Shown here piece after piece: positions 11,848 to 34,387 of a stretch of DNA of 34,562 nucleotides. The stretch lies in the IMG/VR virus record IMGVR_UViG_3300046492_000083, positions 1 to 34,562 of that record; one strand, written 5' to 3'. This DNA comes from a virus. Position 1 is the stretch's first letter, and each line of letters begins with the position of its first letter. The position numbers and the translations under genes were made by a program. The notes beneath the pieces were generated by a model. That model worked only from the letters and a program-made list of their open reading frames with translations, had not been told where the DNA came from and did no database searches.

Positions 11848-13077
11848 GTGACGGACACCTATACCTCATACACCGATCTTGCGGCGCATGAGACAGAGGG
11901 TGTCGATTACGAGCGCAGGTCGGTCCCGGTTTCCGGGGCCGCCTGGTGCTCAATCGCCATCCATGGCGGGGGCATTGAGGCTGGATCGGGCGAGGTAGCG
12001 CGGGCAATCGGCGCAGGCATCATGAACCACTACGAGTTTGCCGGAATCAAGTCCTCTGGCAACTCGGTCCTACACGTGACGTCGACCAACTTCAATGAGC
12101 CGATATGCACCGGCATTGTGACTTCCTCGCTGCGCTGCCTATCCGCGCACGGGTACACCGGTACCGATGGCCTGGCCCAAACGTCCATTGGTGGACTGGA
12201 CACGGCCACGATTGCCCGTATCCGAACCAACCTGCAACAGGCTGGATTCTCGGTAATCACTGCCGCCCAGGAAATCAACGGCAGCAATCCAGCGAACATC
12301 TGCAATCAGACCACCATCACCGCTGGCGTACAGCTTGAGATGAGCAATGCGCTTCGCGCGTCGTTCTTCCCTGACGGGGACTTGAGCCGTGCCATGCGGG
12401 ACAGCGGGCAGCGCACTGACGCTTTCTACGCCTACGTTGATGCGGTCCGCCGTGCCTATCAGGGGCGAGCGATGATGGCGCTAAACACCATCAACATCAG
12501 CCGATGGGCAACAATCCCATGGGGTTCGCCGGACTTTGACATCAAAGCGAGCATGACCACGGATGCTACGCCGTTGGGTGGTTCTCACTTCCTGCACCTA
12601 GGCGGCCGGTACACCGACCTGAACAACAACTACCTTGCCCGCCTTGAGTTCAGCACCACCAACACGCTAACGCTGACCCTGCGCAAGCGCGTTGCCGGAA
12701 CTGAGACGCTGCTAGCGACAGCCCACACGAACATCACGGGCGCGTACACGTTCACCCCCGGGACCATGTACTACCTGCGATTCAACGTCACCGGTTCGAC
12801 GCTGAGCGCCAAGATTTGGCAGTCCGGTGCCCCCGAGCCTGACGGTTGGGCTATTCAGGCAACCGACACCAGCATTACGGCGGTTGGGTCGGTCGGTATC
12901 CGTTCGATCCTTTCCAGCACGAACACAAACACGCTGCCTGTCACGTTCTCCTATGACGACTTCCAGCAGATTTCGCCGCAGAGCTTTACGGTTCAGCGCA
13001 GCGTCAATGGAGTGGTCAAGGCACAAACCGCAGGCACGCCCGTAACCGTAGACCCAACGCCCGTTATTGCTCTGTAG
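11848..13077 (+). CDS. Tail protein: poly-gamma-glutamate-hydrolase-like domain plus lectin-like domain
   Basis: A 409-residue two-domain protein. Residues 1-205 match the poly-gamma-glutamate hydrolase family (PghP/DUF867, a zinc peptidase): IAIHGGGIEAGSGEVA carries H39 and E44, and SAHGY carries H101, the same spacing as the known zinc ligands of PghP as I recall them. LHVTSTNF and VQLEMSNALR are further family motifs. Residues about 208-395 form a laminin-G/concanavalin-like sandwich (NYLARLEFSTTNTLTLTLRKR) that continues the domain begun at the end of the upstream protein. The GTG at 11848 has GGGAG upstream, and the gene is in the -1 frame of its neighbour. It would degrade a surface polymer during adsorption; the true substrate is unknown. 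Confidence 0.8.
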   Translation: MTDTYTSYTDLAAHETEGVDYERRSVPVSGAAWCSIAIHGGGIEAGSGEVARAIGAGIMNHYEFAGIKSSGNSVLHVTSTNFNEPICTGIVTSSLRCLSAHGYTGTDGLAQTSIGGLDTATIARIRTNLQQAGFSVITAAQEINGSNPANICNQTTITAGVQLEMSNALRASFFPDGDLSRAMRDSGQRTDAFYAYVDAVRRAYQGRAMMALNTINISRWATIPWGSPDFDIKASMTTDATPLGGSHFLHLGGRYTDLNNNYLARLEFSTTNTLTLTLRKRVAGTETLLATAHTNITGAYTFTPGTMYYLRFNVTGSTLSAKIWQSGAPEPDGWAIQATDTSITAVGSVGIRSILSSTNTNTLPVTFSYDDFQQISPQSFTVQRSVNGVVKAQTAGTPVTVDPTPVIAL

Positions 13078-15096: not shown

Positions 15097-15113
15097 TGCG
15101 ATCGGACCGCTAG
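15097..15113 (+). promoter_or_regulatory. Phage-type promoter motif, copy 1
   Basis: TGCGATCGGACCGCTAG, one mismatch to the shared 17-base motif, 33 bases before the dNMP kinase ATG. A 12-bp stem follows at once: 15115-15126 pairs with 15133-15144, and the 3' arm holds the GGGGAGGG ribosome site of the kinase. Assigned as a promoter because copies stand before early genes; it does not resemble a host -35/-10 pair. Confidence 0.65.
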
Positions 15114-15114
15114 A

Positions 15115-16252: not shown

Positions 16253-16266
16253 TACCAAAATTGGTA
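16253..16266. repeat. Operator-like palindrome, site 5
   Basis: TACCAAAATTGGTA, perfect 14-bp palindrome, five bases after the preceding stop. The right flank GGTGGCC fits the family; the left flank (GCAGG) is degenerate. It lies 14 bases upstream of the TTGCAA of a host-type promoter. Confidence 0.65.
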
Positions 16267-16280
16267 GGTGGCCTGGGGAT

Positions 16281-16309
16281 TTGCAACCCGGGCCGCCTAC
16301 CGCTAGAGT
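16281..16309 (+). promoter_or_regulatory. Host-type promoter downstream of operator site 5
   Basis: TTGCAA at 16281-16286, 17-base spacer, TAGAGT at 16304-16309. Best-scoring host-like promoter I found by eye. Transcription would begin near 16316, about 30 bases before the ATG at 16348, which has GGGGCAGGGG upstream. Confidence 0.5.
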
Positions 16310-16347
16310 TCTACTCGTACCAACAACGACAACGAGGGGCAGGGGTC

Positions 16348-17577
16348 ATGAACGTTCAGCTTCGTACCGGCAAGGTTCACTACGCTGGGGAGCCTGACGG
16401 TTTCATGCCTGCCCCCGTGTGTGGCGGTAACCGCGCTGTCGAGGGCTACCGAGCCGTGACAGCGGAAGTCAACTGCAAAAACTGTCTGGCCATCATGGCC
16501 AAGAGTGAGGAGACGCAGGAAATGACTGAGCGTAGCGAAGAGATCACGCAGGATGAGCAGCTTGCCCGCGACGTCGAGCAGGCACAGGCCAACATCGACC
16601 GCGCGGTTTCGCTGGCTGAGGCGGAGAACGTCGAGGGCCTGGCAGAGCTGTCCAAGGAACACGAGACGCTGGTTTCGTCCATGCCGTCCCGTGGCAAGAT
16701 CCCGACCGGTGACATGACCTGGGCTGCGTTCAAGAAAGCGTCTCGGGACGACTTCCGCAAGGCATCGCAGGCGCAGCCCAAGGCGGAGACCAAGCCCAAG
16801 GCCGAGGTCATCCCGGCCAAGGACTACACCGCGTACGAGGGTGTCTCAGAGCTTGTCACCATGGGTGCCGAAAAGGTCGCTGAGGGTGTGCGCATGCACA
16901 TCAAGACCAGCACCACGGCAAAGGAAATCGCCTCAATCATCCTGGACATGTGGCGGCGCATCCCCAACAAGGATGGTGACCCGGACATCACCGGTACGTC
17001 TGACCCCGCAAAGAAGTCGTCCGGTGCCATGTACCGCGCGGTTGGTGAGGCGCTGGCCAAGGACGGCCTTGACGCATACGACGTCGAGCAGGCCGTAAAG
17101 AAGCTCATGAGGGCCGTTCAGACGCAGCGCACGGACGTCCGGGCCGAGTACCTGCGCAGCCTGGACGCGGACACCGAGGAAGCGGCCGAGGAACGCCAGC
17201 ACTTTGCCAAGCTGCTTGAGACCAACACGGCCGGTGGCCCCGTCTCCGAGTTCCTGGCCGCTCACTATCAGGTGGGCCTCAAGGGTGAGATTGAGAAGGC
17301 GCGGGAGCGTTACCACGCTGCCAAGCTGGAAGGCCCCAAGGGTGGGGAGGCCATCACCACGGGTGGGGGCGCAGGCGACGACGAGAGCGACGACGACGCG
17401 CAGGGAACGAGCCCGGACGACGAGATCAGGGCCGTTGTCCGGCTGCTGCGCAAGGACGTTGCCAAGGCCAAGCCCGAGTCTTTCGAGGCTGCCAGCGACG
17501 AGACCAAGACCGAGGTCCGTGAGGAACTTGAGGCGCTGTACAAGGCCATCAAGGACATGATCACGGCCACCCTGTAG
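16348..17577 (+). CDS. Large early protein with N-terminal zinc ribbon, unknown function
   Basis: A 409-residue acidic protein. The ATG at 16348 is preferred over an upstream TTG because it has AGGGGCAGGGG before it and lies after the promoter. Residues 1-50 look like a stand-alone actinophage zinc ribbon (H11, C25, C43, C46 in VHYAG..., VCGGN, NCKNC). Residues 65-125 are helical and charged, and a Lys/Pro-rich linker follows near 145-165. The middle (about 170-300) is helical with TSTTAKEIASIILDMWRR. The segment around 340-365 is Gly/Asp-rich and disordered, followed by a final helix. It could be a DNA- or RNA-binding early protein. It is followed by the strongest terminator in the window. 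Confidence 0.8.
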   Translation: MNVQLRTGKVHYAGEPDGFMPAPVCGGNRAVEGYRAVTAEVNCKNCLAIMAKSEETQEMTERSEEITQDEQLARDVEQAQANIDRAVSLAEAENVEGLAELSKEHETLVSSMPSRGKIPTGDMTWAAFKKASRDDFRKASQAQPKAETKPKAEVIPAKDYTAYEGVSELVTMGAEKVAEGVRMHIKTSTTAKEIASIILDMWRRIPNKDGDPDITGTSDPAKKSSGAMYRAVGEALAKDGLDAYDVEQAVKKLMRAVQTQRTDVRAEYLRSLDADTEEAAEERQHFAKLLETNTAGGPVSEFLAAHYQVGLKGEIEKARERYHAAKLEGPKGGEAITTGGGAGDDESDDDAQGTSPDDEIRAVVRLLRKDVAKAKPESFEAASDETKTEVREELEALYKAIKDMITATL

Positions 17578-17792: not shown

Positions 17793-17809
17793 TGCGATCG
17801 AACCGCTAG
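17793..17809 (+). promoter_or_regulatory. Phage-type promoter motif, copy 2
   Basis: Exact TGCGATCGAACCGCTAG, directly abutting hairpin repeat A and 38 bases before the ATG of the RecB-like nuclease. An 11-position stem follows (17810-17820 with 17829-17839, one mismatch, one T-G pair), its 3' arm covering the GAGAGGG ribosome site. Confidence 0.7.
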
Positions 17810-17847
17810 CCCTTCCGTGTAAGCAACTACACGAGAGGGACAGCCTG

Positions 17848-18695: not shown

Positions 18696-18712
18696 TGCGA
18701 TCGAACCTCTAG
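18696..18712 (+). promoter_or_regulatory. Phage-type promoter motif, copy 3
   Basis: TGCGATCGAACCTCTAG, one mismatch to the shared motif. It is followed by a strong hairpin (18723-18775) before the gp3-like gene at 18808, so this transcript may be attenuated. Confidence 0.6.
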
Positions 18713-18722
18713 CAACAACTCA

Positions 18723-21522: not shown

Positions 21523-21539
21523 TGCGATCGAACCGCTAG
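21523..21539 (+). promoter_or_regulatory. Phage-type promoter motif, copy 4
   Basis: Exact TGCGATCGAACCGCTAG, 24 bases before the primase-helicase ATG. The short leader holds CCTC/GAGG around TGA, a small stem that overlaps the GAGAGGAGAG ribosome site. Confidence 0.7.
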
Positions 21540-21563
21540 GCCCCCTCTGAGAGGAGAGACAAC

Positions 21564-23999
21564 ATGGATGCTTCACAGTTGCTCGGTCACTTTGAGGGGG
21601 TCAGCGAGCAGTCAGACGGTGGCTACCTCGCTTACTGCCCTGGCCACGGTGACAGTCGCCCGTCCCTGCGAATCTGGTTCGGCGAGGATGGCAAGGTACG
21701 CATCACTTGCCGTGCCGGTTGCAAGCCTGCCGACGTCGTCAAGGCCGCTGACCTCACCTGGGCGGACATGTTCGGCGTAGAGGGTGACGTGCCCACCGTG
21801 CGCGCTGCCAAGGCTGAACTTGTCGGCCCCAAGCACATAGCCGCACTGGCCATGTATGTAGACGACGCACGCGACCGACTGAACGAGCGGGACGAGTGGT
21901 CCATACGCGCCACCTGCTATCTCGCCGACCGGTTCGGCATGACCGCAGAAACCGCCGTTGCCCTTGGTGTGGGAGTGGACGACACCACGGTTAACCCGTT
22001 GTTCGGAGCGCTCAGCGACAGCTACAAGCGCTTCCCGCGCATCACGGTTCCGCTACTCGACTTCAACGGCAACCCGCGCGGTTTGCAGGGTCGGGACCTT
22101 ACCGGTCGGTGTCCCGGACGTTGGGTGTCGCTCAGCAACCCGGAAGGCTTCCGCTGGGCTCCCTACGGCGTGTTCAAGGGTGATGGTGGGTACGGGGTCA
22201 CCCTGGTCACGGAAGGCCCTGGGGACGGCCTTACAGGCGTTTCCGTTGGCTACGACGTGGTCATGGTCCGGGGCGCTTCCCTGGTGGCTTCCCCTGACCT
22301 ACTCGCCGAGCTTGCCGAGGGCATGCAGGGAACGCAGGTAATCGCCTGCGGAGACAACGACACGGCGGGACGTGAGTTCAACCGTCGCCTTGCCGATGGC
22401 CTGCGCCCGTTCGGAATCGACGTCTACTCGCTGCCCATTCCCAACCTTGGCCCCAAGTCGGACCTTACCGATTGGCGCGAGTCCAACCCGCAGGCGTTCG
22501 CGTCCGCTCTGCACTCGGCTGTCAAGTCGGCCAGGCCCGTAGCCAAGCCCGAGGAAGCACACCGAGCAGCCGTTACCGCTGAGCTTGCGGAAGCTACCGG
22601 CGCTGACGTCGTCTCGCGCGACCAGGGCACGGAAGCAGGCCGCATTCTCGCGTCGCTGATTGAGCGCTACGGCGAGTCTGACGCCATGAACGCGCATGCC
22701 TTGGTGGCTTGGACGGATGGCCGTATCAAGTTCGCGCCTGGCCTGGGGTTCTACGTGTGGAACGGTCGCGTATGGGAGCGCTCTGAGGTCAAGGTGCGCC
22801 AGGAAGTACACCGAATGGGCGCTGCCCTGGTGCTGGCTGGCAAGCTGCAAGAGTCCAAGGGCTTTACCATGACGACGCGCATTGACGCGCTACTGACTGA
22901 GCTTCGCAGCGTGCCCAGCGTGTACGTGGCCCCGGGTGATTTCGACAACCGGCCCGACCTGCTCAGCTTTGCCAACGGCACCGTTGAACTTCGCACCGGT
23001 CGTCTCCGCCCGCACGCGCAAGGCGACATGCTGACCTACTGCCTTGCGTTGAACTACGACCCGCAGGCCCAGTGTCCGCGCTGGGAACAGTTTCTCTACG
23101 AGATTTTCCCGGATAACCCGGACTTGGTCCCGTACATGCAACGGCTGATTGGCTACGGCGCTACCGGCTACACGGATGAGCAGTGCTTCGCTGTCCTCTG
23201 GGGCAAGGGTGCCAACGGTAAGAGCGTACTCACGGACACCCTGTCTACCGTGTTCGGCCGCATCACCAAGACAACGCCCTTTGCCACGTTCGAGGAAAAG
23301 CAGTCTGGCGGTATCCCGAACGACATTGCCTCGCTGCGCGGTGCGCGGTTCGTCATGGCATCTGAGGGCGAGTCAGGCAAGCCCATGAGTGAGGCAGTGC
23401 TCAAGCGGGTTACCGGCAAGGACATGGTCTCTGCGCGCTTCCTGCGTCAGGAGTTCTTTGAGTTCAAGCCGTCGTTCCTGCTCATGCTGGCCACAAACCA
23501 TAAGCCCAAGTTCAAGGGCCAGGACGATGGCCTTTGGCGTCGAGTCAAGATGATTCCGTTTAAGCGGTATTTCGCTCCGCATGAACGTGAACACGACCTT
23601 GACAAGAAACTCAGCGCTGAGGCCGAGGGCATAGCAGCGTGGGTAGTACGGGGTGCGCAAGCCTGGTTCACTGACGGGCTGTCCGACCCGGAGACCATCA
23701 CGCTTGCCACGCGGGAGTACAAGGAAACCAGCGATGCTCTCGCCGGATTCTTCCCGGGTGTGCTTGAGCCTGCCGCAGGACAGCGCATGGACGGTGCTGC
23801 CGCCTACATCGCCTACACCGAGTGGTGCGACGCCGAGGGGTTGCAGCGTAAGGAAGTGTGGTCGCGCCAGGCGTTCTACTCGGCCCTTGAGGAACGAGGG
23901 GTCATGAAGACGCGCGGTAAGAAGGGTACGGCGCTGATCGGCGTTCGAACCGCTAGCGCAGAAGTGAAAACGGGTCCGGGCATCTTCGCCAAGGACTGA
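21564..23999 (+). CDS. Primase-helicase (zinc finger, TOPRIM, D5-type SF3 helicase)
   Basis: An 811-residue replication protein that should unwind DNA at the fork and lay primers. Domains in order: CHCC zinc finger (C25, H28, C49, C53) at about 1-60; TOPRIM-like region at about 210-290 with VTLVTEGPGDGL and VIACGDNDTAGRE (acidic metal ligands); then a D5/NrS-1-like part (about 440-530, FDNRPDLLSFANGTVELRTG); and an SF3/D5 ATPase with Walker A GKGANGKS near 547, FVMASEGESGK and LMLATNHKPKF (sensor Asn). A winged-helix-like C-terminus follows. The ATG has GAGGAGAGACAAC upstream. It stands under promoter copy 4 and before DNA polymerase. A degenerate promoter-like string lies at 23940-23956 in its coding end. 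Confidence 0.92.
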   Translation: MDASQLLGHFEGVSEQSDGGYLAYCPGHGDSRPSLRIWFGEDGKVRITCRAGCKPADVVKAADLTWADMFGVEGDVPTVRAAKAELVGPKHIAALAMYVDDARDRLNERDEWSIRATCYLADRFGMTAETAVALGVGVDDTTVNPLFGALSDSYKRFPRITVPLLDFNGNPRGLQGRDLTGRCPGRWVSLSNPEGFRWAPYGVFKGDGGYGVTLVTEGPGDGLTGVSVGYDVVMVRGASLVASPDLLAELAEGMQGTQVIACGDNDTAGREFNRRLADGLRPFGIDVYSLPIPNLGPKSDLTDWRESNPQAFASALHSAVKSARPVAKPEEAHRAAVTAELAEATGADVVSRDQGTEAGRILASLIERYGESDAMNAHALVAWTDGRIKFAPGLGFYVWNGRVWERSEVKVRQEVHRMGAALVLAGKLQESKGFTMTTRIDALLTELRSVPSVYVAPGDFDNRPDLLSFANGTVELRTGRLRPHAQGDMLTYCLALNYDPQAQCPRWEQFLYEIFPDNPDLVPYMQRLIGYGATGYTDEQCFAVLWGKGANGKSVLTDTLSTVFGRITKTTPFATFEEKQSGGIPNDIASLRGARFVMASEGESGKPMSEAVLKRVTGKDMVSARFLRQEFFEFKPSFLLMLATNHKPKFKGQDDGLWRRVKMIPFKRYFAPHEREHDLDKKLSAEAEGIAAWVVRGAQAWFTDGLSDPETITLATREYKETSDALAGFFPGVLEPAAGQRMDGAAAYIAYTEWCDAEGLQRKEVWSRQAFYSALEERGVMKTRGKKGTALIGVRTASAEVKTGPGIFAKD

Positions 24000-26185: not shown

Positions 26186-26306
26186 TGTGCCCAGCGACGA
26201 CGAGTCATCCGGCCGGAGGCTCGACGTAGCAGACAGCCCGCAGAGGGGTTGGTCTGTATGTCAGCGCTGCCCCCGTAGCCCTGATCCATCCGGCCGAATC
26301 CCTTCC

Positions 26307-26323
26307 TGCGATCGAACCGCTAG
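26307..26323 (+). promoter_or_regulatory. Phage-type promoter motif, copy 5
   Basis: Exact TGCGATCGAACCGCTAG, 35 bases before the sigma-like gene. It is enclosed by a perfect 10-bp inverted repeat: AATCCCTTCC at 26297-26306 and GGAAGGGATT at 26344-26353. The right arm contains the gene's ribosome site. Confidence 0.7.
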
Positions 26324-26358
26324 AGCTGCCTTGAGCGCTCACCGGAAGGGATTCACCA

Positions 26359-27453
26359 ATGATCACCATGGCCCAGATTCACGCTGCCCAGGACAACGAC
26401 CTTGACGGCATAACGGCCGTTCTCGCCGAGATGGACCAGCGCATAGCCAGGCTGGCAGCGCAGGCCGCACGCAGGATCGAGGGCGGACACCGCGAGGATT
26501 TCGAGCAGGACGCACGTGAGGCTCTGTTCCTGGCACTCCCTCGCGTGTCCGGCGAGAGCGTAGACAGCGCCATCGGTTTCCTGTACTCGACCATGGCGGA
26601 AGTCCTCAAGGACAAGGTCCGGTCCGAGCGGTACCAGGGCGTTGACCGTGACGCCGTAAAGACCTTCCTTGGTGCCCTGGTGGAATCGAACGGGGACGCC
26701 TACGCCGCAGAGCGGAAGGCGCGAGAGCTGCCCAAGGGTGAGCGTCTGAGCGCTGACCGTGCGGCTGCTGCCCGCCTGGCTTTCCAGGGTGCCGTGTCCA
26801 TCGACCGGCAGAACGGCGACGACGACGACTCGGCATCCATCGCTGACACGCTCGCTGTGGTCGACATTGAGCCCGTGGTGATCCGTCCCAAGGTGGGCGC
26901 TGGTGCGGCCCTGGAAGCCCTGGCGGTACTCCAGCGGTACTCGACCCGCTACGACGTGCTGAACGCCCTTCCTGCGGACGCTGAGGGAGTCGACGCGATT
27001 GAGGATGCTGTGACGCTTCCCCGTGACCCCGCTGAGCGCCGGTACGTGCTGGACGCTTGCGCCATCCTCCGTAGCTACGTCTCTACGGCCACGGATGGTG
27101 ACCTTTCTGACGACCTGCGGGTTGTGGCGGATGACCGCAAGGATGAGCGGGCCGCAAAGGTGGCGACCGTAAATCAGGTTCTCGACAGCATGCGCAGCCA
27201 GGACCAGGCTGAGGCCATCCGCCTTTCGTTCGGCATCGCTGACCGGTTCTGCTTCGGTACCGGTGCGGATGGTGACCTTGAGGGCCTGGCGGACGCCATG
27301 GGTGTTGACCCTAAGAAGGTGTCTGACGCTCGGTCGCGTGGCCTCAAGTCCTTTGCGAAGCGCTTCATTGCCCTGGTGGCCAAGACTGCGGAGCAGGCCA
27401 CGGAACTTGCTGAGGCTGCTGCCGCCAACCTTTCCCGGGGCGGACGTAAGTGA
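26359..27453 (+). CDS. Sigma-factor-like transcription protein
   Basis: A 364-residue protein with the layout of a divergent sigma-70-type factor. Residues about 40-90 look like region 2: REDFEQDAREALFLALPRV recalls the EDl.QE..laL..A pattern, followed by IGFLYSTMAEVLKDKVRSER, like the Y....I...i...iR segment. Residues about 270-345 look like region 4: QAEAIRLSFGIADRF, then DLEGLADAMGVDPKKVSDARSRGLKSFAKRF, a good helix-turn-helix with the usual Val-x-x-a-x-x-x-a-l recognition helix. The middle is acidic and unlike region 3. Its own gene sits behind a phage-type promoter, which suggests positive feedback. Alternatives are an anti-terminator or other HTH regulator. The ATG follows GGAAGGGATTCACCA. 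Confidence 0.65.
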   Translation: MITMAQIHAAQDNDLDGITAVLAEMDQRIARLAAQAARRIEGGHREDFEQDAREALFLALPRVSGESVDSAIGFLYSTMAEVLKDKVRSERYQGVDRDAVKTFLGALVESNGDAYAAERKARELPKGERLSADRAAAARLAFQGAVSIDRQNGDDDDSASIADTLAVVDIEPVVIRPKVGAGAALEALAVLQRYSTRYDVLNALPADAEGVDAIEDAVTLPRDPAERRYVLDACAILRSYVSTATDGDLSDDLRVVADDRKDERAAKVATVNQVLDSMRSQDQAEAIRLSFGIADRFCFGTGADGDLEGLADAMGVDPKKVSDARSRGLKSFAKRFIALVAKTAEQATELAEAAAANLSRGGRK

Positions 27454-27761: not shown

Positions 27762-28038
27762 CGTGGCTGCCTTGTACCTACGTGCTCGCAGGACCAGGAA
27801 GGCCCCGTACAGGCGGTCAGAGGTGTTCGCCCGATGGGGCCATGCCTGTTGCTACTGCGATGCGCCAGCGGAGCATCTAGACCACGTCACGCCCCTGTCA
27901 CGGGGTGGGCGGGACGTGCTGTCCAACGTCGTCCCTGCCTGCGCCCCCTGCAACCTGGGGAAAGCCGCTCTGACGCTGGCTGAGTGGGTAAGTGCGATCG
28001 AACCGCTAGGACCCAACCAAGCAACCGAAACACACTGA
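27754..28038 (+). CDS. HNH endonuclease (stand-alone domain)
   Basis: A 94-residue HNH nuclease. WGHACCYCDAPAEHLDHVTP gives the first Cys pair and HxDH site, and NVVPACAPCNLGKAALTLAE gives Asn and the second Cys pair, closely matching the 20971 protein. The ATG at 27754 overlaps the zinc-ribbon stop by 8 bases, so the two are probably translated together and may form one functional unit. Its last residues (SAIEPLGPNQATETH) are coded by promoter copy 6, so the C-terminus is longer than the relative's, which ends AEWAEGF. A frame split of an ancestral single gene or an original two-gene state are both possible. Confidence 0.8.
   Translation: MADVAALYLRARRTRKAPYRRSEVFARWGHACCYCDAPAEHLDHVTPLSRGGRDVLSNVVPACAPCNLGKAALTLAEWVSAIEPLGPNQATETH
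27993..28009 (+). promoter_or_regulatory. Phage-type promoter motif, copy 6 (inside HNH gene)
   Basis: Exact TGCGATCGAACCGCTAG, placed within the 3' coding end of the HNH gene and read there as SAIEPL. It stands 40 bases before the small gene at 28050. Confidence 0.65.
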
Positions 28039-33892: not shown

Positions 33893-33909
33893 TGCGATCG
33901 AACCGCTAG
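33893..33909 (+). promoter_or_regulatory. Phage-type promoter motif, copy 7 (before tRNA cluster)
   Basis: Exact TGCGATCGAACCGCTAG, followed by ATATAGGGTAGGG. No gene follows on the + strand before tRNA-Asp at 34039, so it probably drives the tRNA cluster. Confidence 0.7.
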
Positions 33910-33916
33910 ATATAGG

Positions 33917-33981
33917 GTAGGGAAGGTTCATCCCGCGCACTAAGGTGACCGAATCCGGCGGACTGAGGTTACCTTCCCTAC
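33917..33981 (+). other. Structured leader of the tRNA cluster
   Basis: GTAGGGAAGGT (33917-33927) pairs perfectly with ACCTTCCCTAC (33971-33981), an 11-bp stem with a 43-base loop. A second stem, TCCCTGG with CCAGGGA, follows between 33983 and 34035, just before tRNA-Asp. These may be processing signals for the tRNA precursor. Confidence 0.5.
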
Positions 33982-34303: not shown

Positions 34304-34383
34304 TGGTACGTAGCTCAGTCGGCAGAGCGCCCCTACCCGGGCTTGTAACGGGGATGTCGCTGGTTCGAGTCCAGCCGTACCAA
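34304..34383 (+). tRNA. tRNA-Thr (UGU) with 7-base insertion in anticodon stem
   Basis: Acceptor TGGTACG (34304-34310) pairs with CGTACCA (34376-34382). D arm GCTC/GAGC, T arm GCTGG-TTCGAGT-CCAGC, anticodon loop CTTGTAA (TGT at 34344-34346), discriminator A34383. The 5' strand of the anticodon stem reads CCCC, then TACCCGG (34334-34340), then G; removing the seven extra bases gives a perfect CCCCG/CGGGG stem. Length is 80 rather than 73. May be non-functional, or tolerate a bulge. Confidence 0.75.
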
Positions 34384-34387
34384 CGGA

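Follow-up and report, generated by a model that had tools for sequence, protein, structure and literature searches.

In the stretch of DNA studied here, a gene for a sigma-like protein of 364 residues stands directly behind one copy of a 17-base string that recurs before other genes and before the tRNA cluster. The preliminary description of this locus had proposed that the protein reads the string, its own copy included, and the question raised is whether it does so. The window (the whole stretch analysed, an IMG/VR record of 34,562 bases) belongs to a phiC31-like Streptomyces phage. The most used serine integrase comes from phiC31, whose early promoters, mapped in the 1990s, constitute a novel, infection-dependent and highly conserved family. 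To our knowledge, the question of their activator has been open since that mapping, and in the literature that could be searched no text tied gp12 to these promoters as an early sigma factor.

We consider it highly probable that a sigma factor of the gp12 family takes the host core polymerase to eight phage promoters, the two halves of which would be read by two of its domains, with feedback on its own gene. Sequence comparison is the basis for the sigma fold, the motif family, its syntenic placement and the joint change of sigma domains and motif halves; promoter activity, feedback (self-amplification) and early timing are inferred.

Genomic Context of the Locus

The nearest named phage was Streptomyces phage Rowa, followed by phiBT1, phiC31, Vash and others. 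The gene order of phiC31 was kept, with repressor c, exonuclease, a Gp3-like directionality factor, primase, DNA polymerase A, ThyX, serine integrase and a tRNA cluster. Among cellular genomes, homologues were found only in four Streptomyces contigs. The coordinates of all features are detailed in Table 1.

Nine palindromes CCTACCAANNTTGGTAGG were observed in the window (2137, 3734, 13656, 15762, 16251, 20765, 24023, 28412 and 31121), against 0.08 expected, and are likely operators of the c repressor. Each clade has its own palindrome, CCTACTCACGTGAGTAGG in phiC31 and CACCTCCGAAAATCCGTAGGTG in Rowa; operators therefore diverge between clades as the sigma motifs do. Immediately before the motif copy at 17793, and again in the 70 bases preceding the copy at 33893, there is a near-duplicate of about 45 bp, CTCTAAGGGAATNCAGAACTGACCCTCNTTTCTACACTTCTNCACC, which thus precedes both the exonuclease promoter and the right-end promoter. 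Stretches similar to TTTCTACACTTCTACAC were also present before the exonuclease gene in Rowa and in the relatives L030 and L041. The CTCTAAGGGAATNCAGAACTGACCCTCNTTTCTACACTTCTNCACC stretch is possibly a host-type promoter or a regulator site. At 34304-34384 ARAGORN predicted a tRNA without an assigned identity, the anticodon of which was read as two bases (cc); this tRNA is odd or degenerate.

Table 1. Features of the window related to the sigma factor and its putative promoters.
Feature	Positions	Strand	Basis
Motif copy before dNMP kinase (15147)	15097..15114	+	One-mismatch match; DNMK Pfam
Repressor c homologue	16261..17577	+	Pfam Phage_Repressor_c, E 4.8e-68
Motif copy before exonuclease, gene 1 homologue (17848)	17793..17810	+	Exact match; phrog_298
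Motif copy before Gp3-like recombination directionality factor (18808)	18696..18713	+	One mismatch; PF18897
Motif copy before DNA primase (21564)	21523..21540	+	Exact match; phrog_6088
Eighth motif copy, inside primase 3' end, before DNA polymerase	23940..23957	+	Syntenic copies in relatives
Upstream arm GAATCCCTTCC of inverted repeat around sigma promoter	26296..26306	+	Read-through RNA fold
Motif copy before sigma gene, 18 columns	26307..26324	+	Exact match
YGAAR element at sigma promoter (columns 26-31), here TGAGCG; initiator or -10	26332..26337	+	Profile, position
Downstream arm GGAAGGGATTC, holding the Shine-Dalgarno of the sigma gene	26344..26354	+	Read-through RNA fold
Predicted sigma factor gene, 364 aa, phiC31 gp12 homologue	26359..27453	+	phrog_15865, identity, AlphaFold, Foldseek
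Sigma region 2, codons 15-91	26401..26631	+	Sigma70_r2 at 29-91; Foldseek to 4lup
Region 4 helix-turn-helix, codons 307-340	27277..27378	+	AlphaFold helices, hmmsearch, Foldseek
Residue 324, tracking motif columns 3 and 6	27328-27330	+	phi 0.96-1.0
Motif copy at HNH gene end, before small gene (GTG 28050)	27993..28010	+	Exact match
Motif copy before tRNA cluster and right end, followed by TATAGGGTAGGG	33893..33910	+	tRNA and probable late promoter

Characterization of the 364-Residue Protein

The protein matched PHROG 15865, 'RNA polymerase sigma factor' (E 2.4e-92), and was 43% identical to phiC31 gp12 and 45% to phiBT1 gp12. Both the full-length homology and the place between the DNA polymerase and the HNH/gp13 region that define the phiC31 gp12 family were present. 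Pfam Sigma70_r2 was matched weakly at residues 29-91 (E 0.04) and was found in 57 of 63 family members, with a best E of 1.8e-9. When the family profile was compared with the PDB by hmmsearch, SigB was recovered at 2e-6 and rpoD region 4 weakly (E 0.1-0.9). A region-3.2-like stretch, SLD..DD..LADTL, was read by eye, and in the family a variable linker of 22-121 residues separates regions 3 and 4.

The AlphaFold model had a pLDDT of 89.7 and a pTM of 0.44, so that the placement of the domains is uncertain; in region 4, helices were predicted at residues 307-314 and 318-340. In Foldseek searches, region 2 was superposed on region 2 of sigmaE (4lup) with an rmsd of 2.5 A over about 90 residues and a probability of 1.0, and region 4 matched that of SigA (6onu). 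The leading PDB matches were sigma factors or isolated regions 2 and 4; whole-chain E-values were poor (best 0.01) because of the uncertain domain placement. The region-2-like and region-4-like segments reported previously are thus borne out by Sigma70_r2 in the family and by the matches to 4lup and 6onu, and the comparison of the AlphaFold model with sigma regions 2 and 4, suggested at that time, returned sigma folds at the top. Sequence and predicted structure place the 364-residue protein among the phage sigma factors of the phiC31 gp12 family; its binding to core RNA polymerase and initiation at promoters are inferred. Given the matches to the PHROG sigma family, Pfam and fold, this annotation is not new (PHROG 15865); the new part is which sequence the sigma factor reads.

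Distribution of the Motif in the Window and in Related Phages

The string TGCGATCGAACCGCTAG had been described as occurring five times exactly and twice with one mismatch, always on the + strand and shortly before an early gene or the tRNA cluster. All seven copies were recovered, on the + strand only and at 33, 38, 95, 24, 35, 40 and 129 bases from the next start or tRNA, but an eighth, at 23940, had been overlooked. This copy (GGCGTTCGAACCGCTAG, two mismatches to TGCGATCGAACCGCTAG) lies in the last primase codons, just before the DNA polymerase, and is counted in the set because relatives carry their own motif at the same place (for example L027:7130, L030:7590, L041:7587 and Rowa 29547). 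With up to three mismatches, eight places were found against 0.12 expected from dinucleotide shuffles, and none of 100 such shuffles reached eight. A PWM built from the eight sites scored its members at 25-32 bits, the next + strand place at 6.3 and the best - strand place at 13.3.

No real site of the window type was found in phiC31, phiBT1 or Rowa at up to four mismatches, and motifs were therefore sought de novo in each phage. Own motifs were recognized in phiC31 (GGGTTGCCGACTCCCTT), phiBT1 (GTCACCGACTCCCTT) and Rowa (GGCATTCGACTC), and those of other relatives were intermediate. A further 79 virus loci were examined; the homologous loci considered number about 93. In about 77 of the 93, an 18-column motif stood 27-56 nt before the sigma gene and recurred at syntenic sites on one strand, typically 4-13 times per locus on the + strand and 0-3 times on the - strand. 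The motifs of 77 loci constitute a graded series that could be aligned without gaps over 18 columns. The search for the same motif-gene pair in related phages, which had been recommended, thus recovered it across about 77 phages.

The sigma gene had its own motif copy in nearly all relatives. In L044, six copies similar to GGTAACCGACTCGCTAG were found, none directly before the sigma gene (around 8131), where the upstream region looks replaced. In a deep clade of the Sebastisaurus type the motif, GGTGGGAATCCCCTCCGCTC, is one base longer, and this clade was excluded from the column statistics. In Shady and Sycamore, the repeat AGGGAACAAGCCCGA was first taken as the promoter motif and was set aside because it stands directly before ATG codons, downstream of AT-rich stretches, like start-associated sequences; the true motif is of the CTTAACCCACTCACTCAC type. 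We take AGGGAACAAGCCCGA to resemble the start-associated sequences of mycobacteriophages. In the right arms of L022 and L023, AGGGAACAAGCCCGA or ACGGAACACGCCGA was repeated directly before the ATG of many small genes.

Co-Variation of Sigma Factor and Motif

Across 58 phages, motif distance followed the sigma factor (partial rho 0.55 for sigma given polymerase, 0.19 for polymerase given sigma). The 5' half was correlated with region 4 (rho 0.48, given region 2 and polymerase) and not with region 2 (-0.10, given region 4), and the 3' half more with region 2 (0.48) than with region 4 (0.21). Column 6 required fewest changes on the region-4 tree (3, against 8, 9 and 7 on the region-2, polymerase and primase trees), and columns 14-16 on the region-2 tree (5, against 9, 9 and 7 on the others). 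The second helix of the region 4 helix-turn-helix contains residue 324, which was Ala exactly in those phages with C in column 3 (phi 1.0) and, with a single exception, in those with T in column 6 (phi 0.96); no other residue tracked these columns nearly as well.

Natural recombinants followed the same division. L041 and L043 share region 4 (82% identity) and not region 2 (32%); the 5' half of their motifs is common, while the 3' half reads CTAG in one and ACAG in the other. L030 and L043 share region 2 (77%) and not region 4 (37%); ACAG is common and the 5' half differs. Judged by their sequences, natural sigma chimeras carry chimeric motifs.

The clearest exchange was observed between L030 and L041. 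In their common segment of about 16 kb, genes were 87-100% identical (exonuclease, primase and polymerase 97-99%), and the sigma gene was the only clearly divergent one, at 48%. All six shared promoters differed at 6-8 of 15 motif positions, compared with mean differences of 0.7 and 2.3 positions among the copies within each of the two genomes. The flanks remained alike despite the motif switch and, at most sites, so did the element at columns 26-31. Seven real copies of the L041 motif were present in the L041 contig and none in L030; six copies of the L030 motif were present in L030 and none in L041. One weak match in the polymerase gene, common to both, was not a site. Strongly diverged promoters thus lie inside nearly identical flanks, and a single gene and 6-8 scattered sites change together; one idea is that selection against mismatched recombinants lies behind this.

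Mantel p-values are too optimistic, as the kinship of the sequences inflates them, and only 3 of the 9 column-6 changes fall on well-supported branches of the polymerase tree. The statistics use the motif copy adjoining the sigma gene, which could travel with it; switching of distant copies is directly seen only in L030/L041 and related pairs. The link between the 3' half and region 2 rests largely on a single region-2 clade, the ACAG phages. In L054 and L062 the sigma factors differ (62%) without a change in motif. An apparent link of columns 10-12 with region 3 (rho 0.37) is not claimed, since the numbers of changes on the four trees (6, 6, 7 and 5) lent it no support. Mutual information with APC was dominated by gaps and clades.

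The proposal that the sigma protein reads the 17-base motif is supported by its pairing across about 77 phages, the natural swap and the domain-wise co-variation, all of them comparative. Because protein and motif co-vary, gp12 very probably directs the host polymerase to the motif promoters, including its own, although no expression, 5'-end or binding data are available.

Promoter Architecture

Host-type spacing had been described earlier as absent. In a profile of 271 non-redundant sites from 58 phages, the information content was about zero between 35 and 3 bases upstream of the motif, with no host-type -35 there. Both motif halves fall within 17 bp and are therefore too close for a canonical -35/-10 pair. 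A second element, YGAAR, was found at columns 26-30, the same in all motif clades; it lies 16 bp past the motif core and could be either a -10 or the site of initiation.

Two layouts were considered. In the compact one, to which we give slightly better than an even chance, the 17-bp motif would be the whole recognition element, with region 2 reading columns 13-17 as the -10. Transcription would start at the Y/R step formed by columns 26/27, some 9 nt downstream of the 18-mer. Region 4 would contact columns 2-9 (about -25 to -18), nearer to the start than a normal -35 by one helical turn. Further upstream of the motif there is no conservation. Column 26 is C or T in 79% and column 27 A or G in 90% of the 271 sites, with depletion of T at column 27 and beyond; all motif clades show this pattern, which was retained at most of the six sites after the sigma swap. 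Strong Shine-Dalgarno sites start at column 27 or later, several exactly at 27-28, with one dubious exception, and the 3' half tracks region 2 more than region 4. Region 4 in known holoenzymes, however, sits on the beta flap near -35, the region-3.2-like stretch implies the usual sigma path, and the association of the 3' half with region 2 depends mainly on the ACAG phages.

The usual seat of region 4 favours a canonical layout, which we regard as possible and less probable than the compact one: the motif would be a long -35, YGAAR the -10, and the start would lie at columns 37-38. The recognition helix of region 4 does track columns 3 and 6, A is slightly enriched in columns 36-39, and the gap of 16 bp is a normal spacer, also that of the phage 7-11 promoters (PMC8948821). 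Nevertheless, YGAAR is unchanged when region 2 is swapped, whereas columns 14-16 change, and in many leaders this layout would place the Shine-Dalgarno at or before the 5' end. The compact layout is favoured because of the positions of the ribosome sites and this constancy of YGAAR.

Inverted Repeat and Right-End Copy

The sigma promoter is flanked by a perfect 11-bp inverted repeat (Table 1). The read-through RNA had an MFE of -29.3 kcal/mol (z -2.7), and RNA begun at either predicted start could not form the stem. Arms of at least 7 were found at 34% of the sigma-gene sites, where 8% would be expected (z 6.0). Before other genes, it was the motif itself that was complementary to the ribosome-site region, in 12% against 4% expected (z 6.3). 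From this a translation lock, conserved as a principle in relatives, is inferred, by which the ribosome site of the sigma gene would be sequestered in a hairpin of the read-through RNA; efficient translation would therefore need promoter-initiated transcripts.

The right-end copy has TATAGGGTAGGG in place of YGAAR, and a similar TA-rich stretch was present in phiC31, phiBT1, TG1 and other relatives. This variant, TATAGG-GTAGGG, directly follows the motif at the tRNA/right-end site of the window (33911-33924) and was also observed in phiC31 (near 12979 and 40569) and phiBT1 (near 12336 and 40851), including before a tail gene in both. It perhaps represents a separate, late promoter subclass. 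The phiC31 late promoter is located upstream of its tRNA and reads across cos; the right-end copy, at the tRNA site, may therefore drive late genes too and probably also serves the late operon.

Proposed Mechanism and Alternatives

In the proposed mechanism, the sigma factor encoded at 26359-27453 would bind the host core RNA polymerase, a step that is inferred, and bring it to eight target promoters: those of the dNMP kinase, exonuclease, directionality factor, primase, DNA polymerase, sigma factor and small gene, and that of the tRNA/right end. Region 4, with its recognition helix around residue 324, would read the 5' half of the motif and region 2 the 3' half. Sigma factor made from an initial transcript, arising at low level or by read-through, would act on its own promoter, an inferred positive feedback; in read-through RNA the hairpin would mask the ribosome site of the sigma gene, and efficient translation would come from promoter-begun transcripts. 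The right-end transcript is inferred to extend into late genes.

Since the motif adjoins regulated genes and promoter activity has not been measured, it might instead be the operator of another phage regulator, an activator or repressor, and merely travel with the sigma gene. This we judge improbable: the sigma gene is the sole clearly divergent gene of the 16 kb shared by L030 and L041, the motif halves track sigma domains separately, and the repressor has other, palindromic candidate sites. Still less credit is given to an action of the motif in RNA, as a leader element, terminator or antiterminator signal. Such a role would suit the coding-strand position of every copy and the complementarity to the downstream Shine-Dalgarno region, which exceeds chance (z 6.3), yet the motif co-varies with residues of regions 4 and 2, and the copies stand directly before transcription units, one of them inside the primase reading frame.

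Under the preferred reading by gp12, a broader proposal comes a little short of an even chance in our estimation: that a contiguous 17-bp promoter is read half by region 4 and half by region 2 and, in addition, that each sigma allele and its 6-8 promoters make up a transcriptional compatibility group. If so, region 4 would work nearer to the start site, by at least 10 bp, than it does in textbook holoenzymes, recombination would freely homogenise genes between groups (97-99% identity) while selection kept the sigma factor and all promoters matched, and intragenic sigma chimeras would be matched by chimeric promoters genome-wide.

Comparison with Known Systems

The window resembles phiC31, phiBT1 and TG1 in having a homologous sigma gene at the same place and a repeated directional motif at the same genes, including before gene 12 and before the tRNA. 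It differs from phiC31 in the motif itself (TGCGATCGAACCGCTAG against GGGTTGCCGACTCCCTT): the places are kept and the sequence is not. The phiC31 consensus is absent from the window, and graded intermediates exist among the relatives. A likely reader is thereby named for the long-puzzling phiC31 early promoters, together with a residue-level recognition code and a set of natural chimeras. The mutually different sigma-promoter pairs could serve as independent expression systems for Streptomyces, and they offer a clear example of a single regulator changing in step with its many scattered sites.

Group 3 sigma factors (SigB, FliA) gave the best sequence and fold matches and share regions 2 and 4 and a probable region 3, but identity is low and the gp12 family has the variable linker of 22-121 residues between regions 3 and 4. 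We know of no host promoter resembling the motif. At T4 late promoters of the gene e type, read-through RNA hides the ribosome site by pairing with promoter sequence; the likeness lies in this hiding, which in the window is only predicted.

Phage sigma factors that redirect the host core polymerase are known in phiEco32 (gp36) and phage 7-11 (gp47), where promoter places are kept and sequences are not among related phages with different sigma factors; phiEco32 has a single-element promoter, and the phage 7-11 promoters read GTAAtg-(16)-aCTA (PMC8948821). The window is similar in the redirection of the core polymerase, here inferred, and in promoter places outlasting sequences when the sigma factor differs. 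However, those sigma factors are independent acquisitions with about 15% identity, and region 4 is missing from gp36, whereas the gp12 proteins constitute one orthologous family with both regions, which drifts and recombines and whose motif halves follow the domains. A phage sigma factor with its own promoters is thus a known kind of system, and what is new here is a modular, possibly compact promoter.
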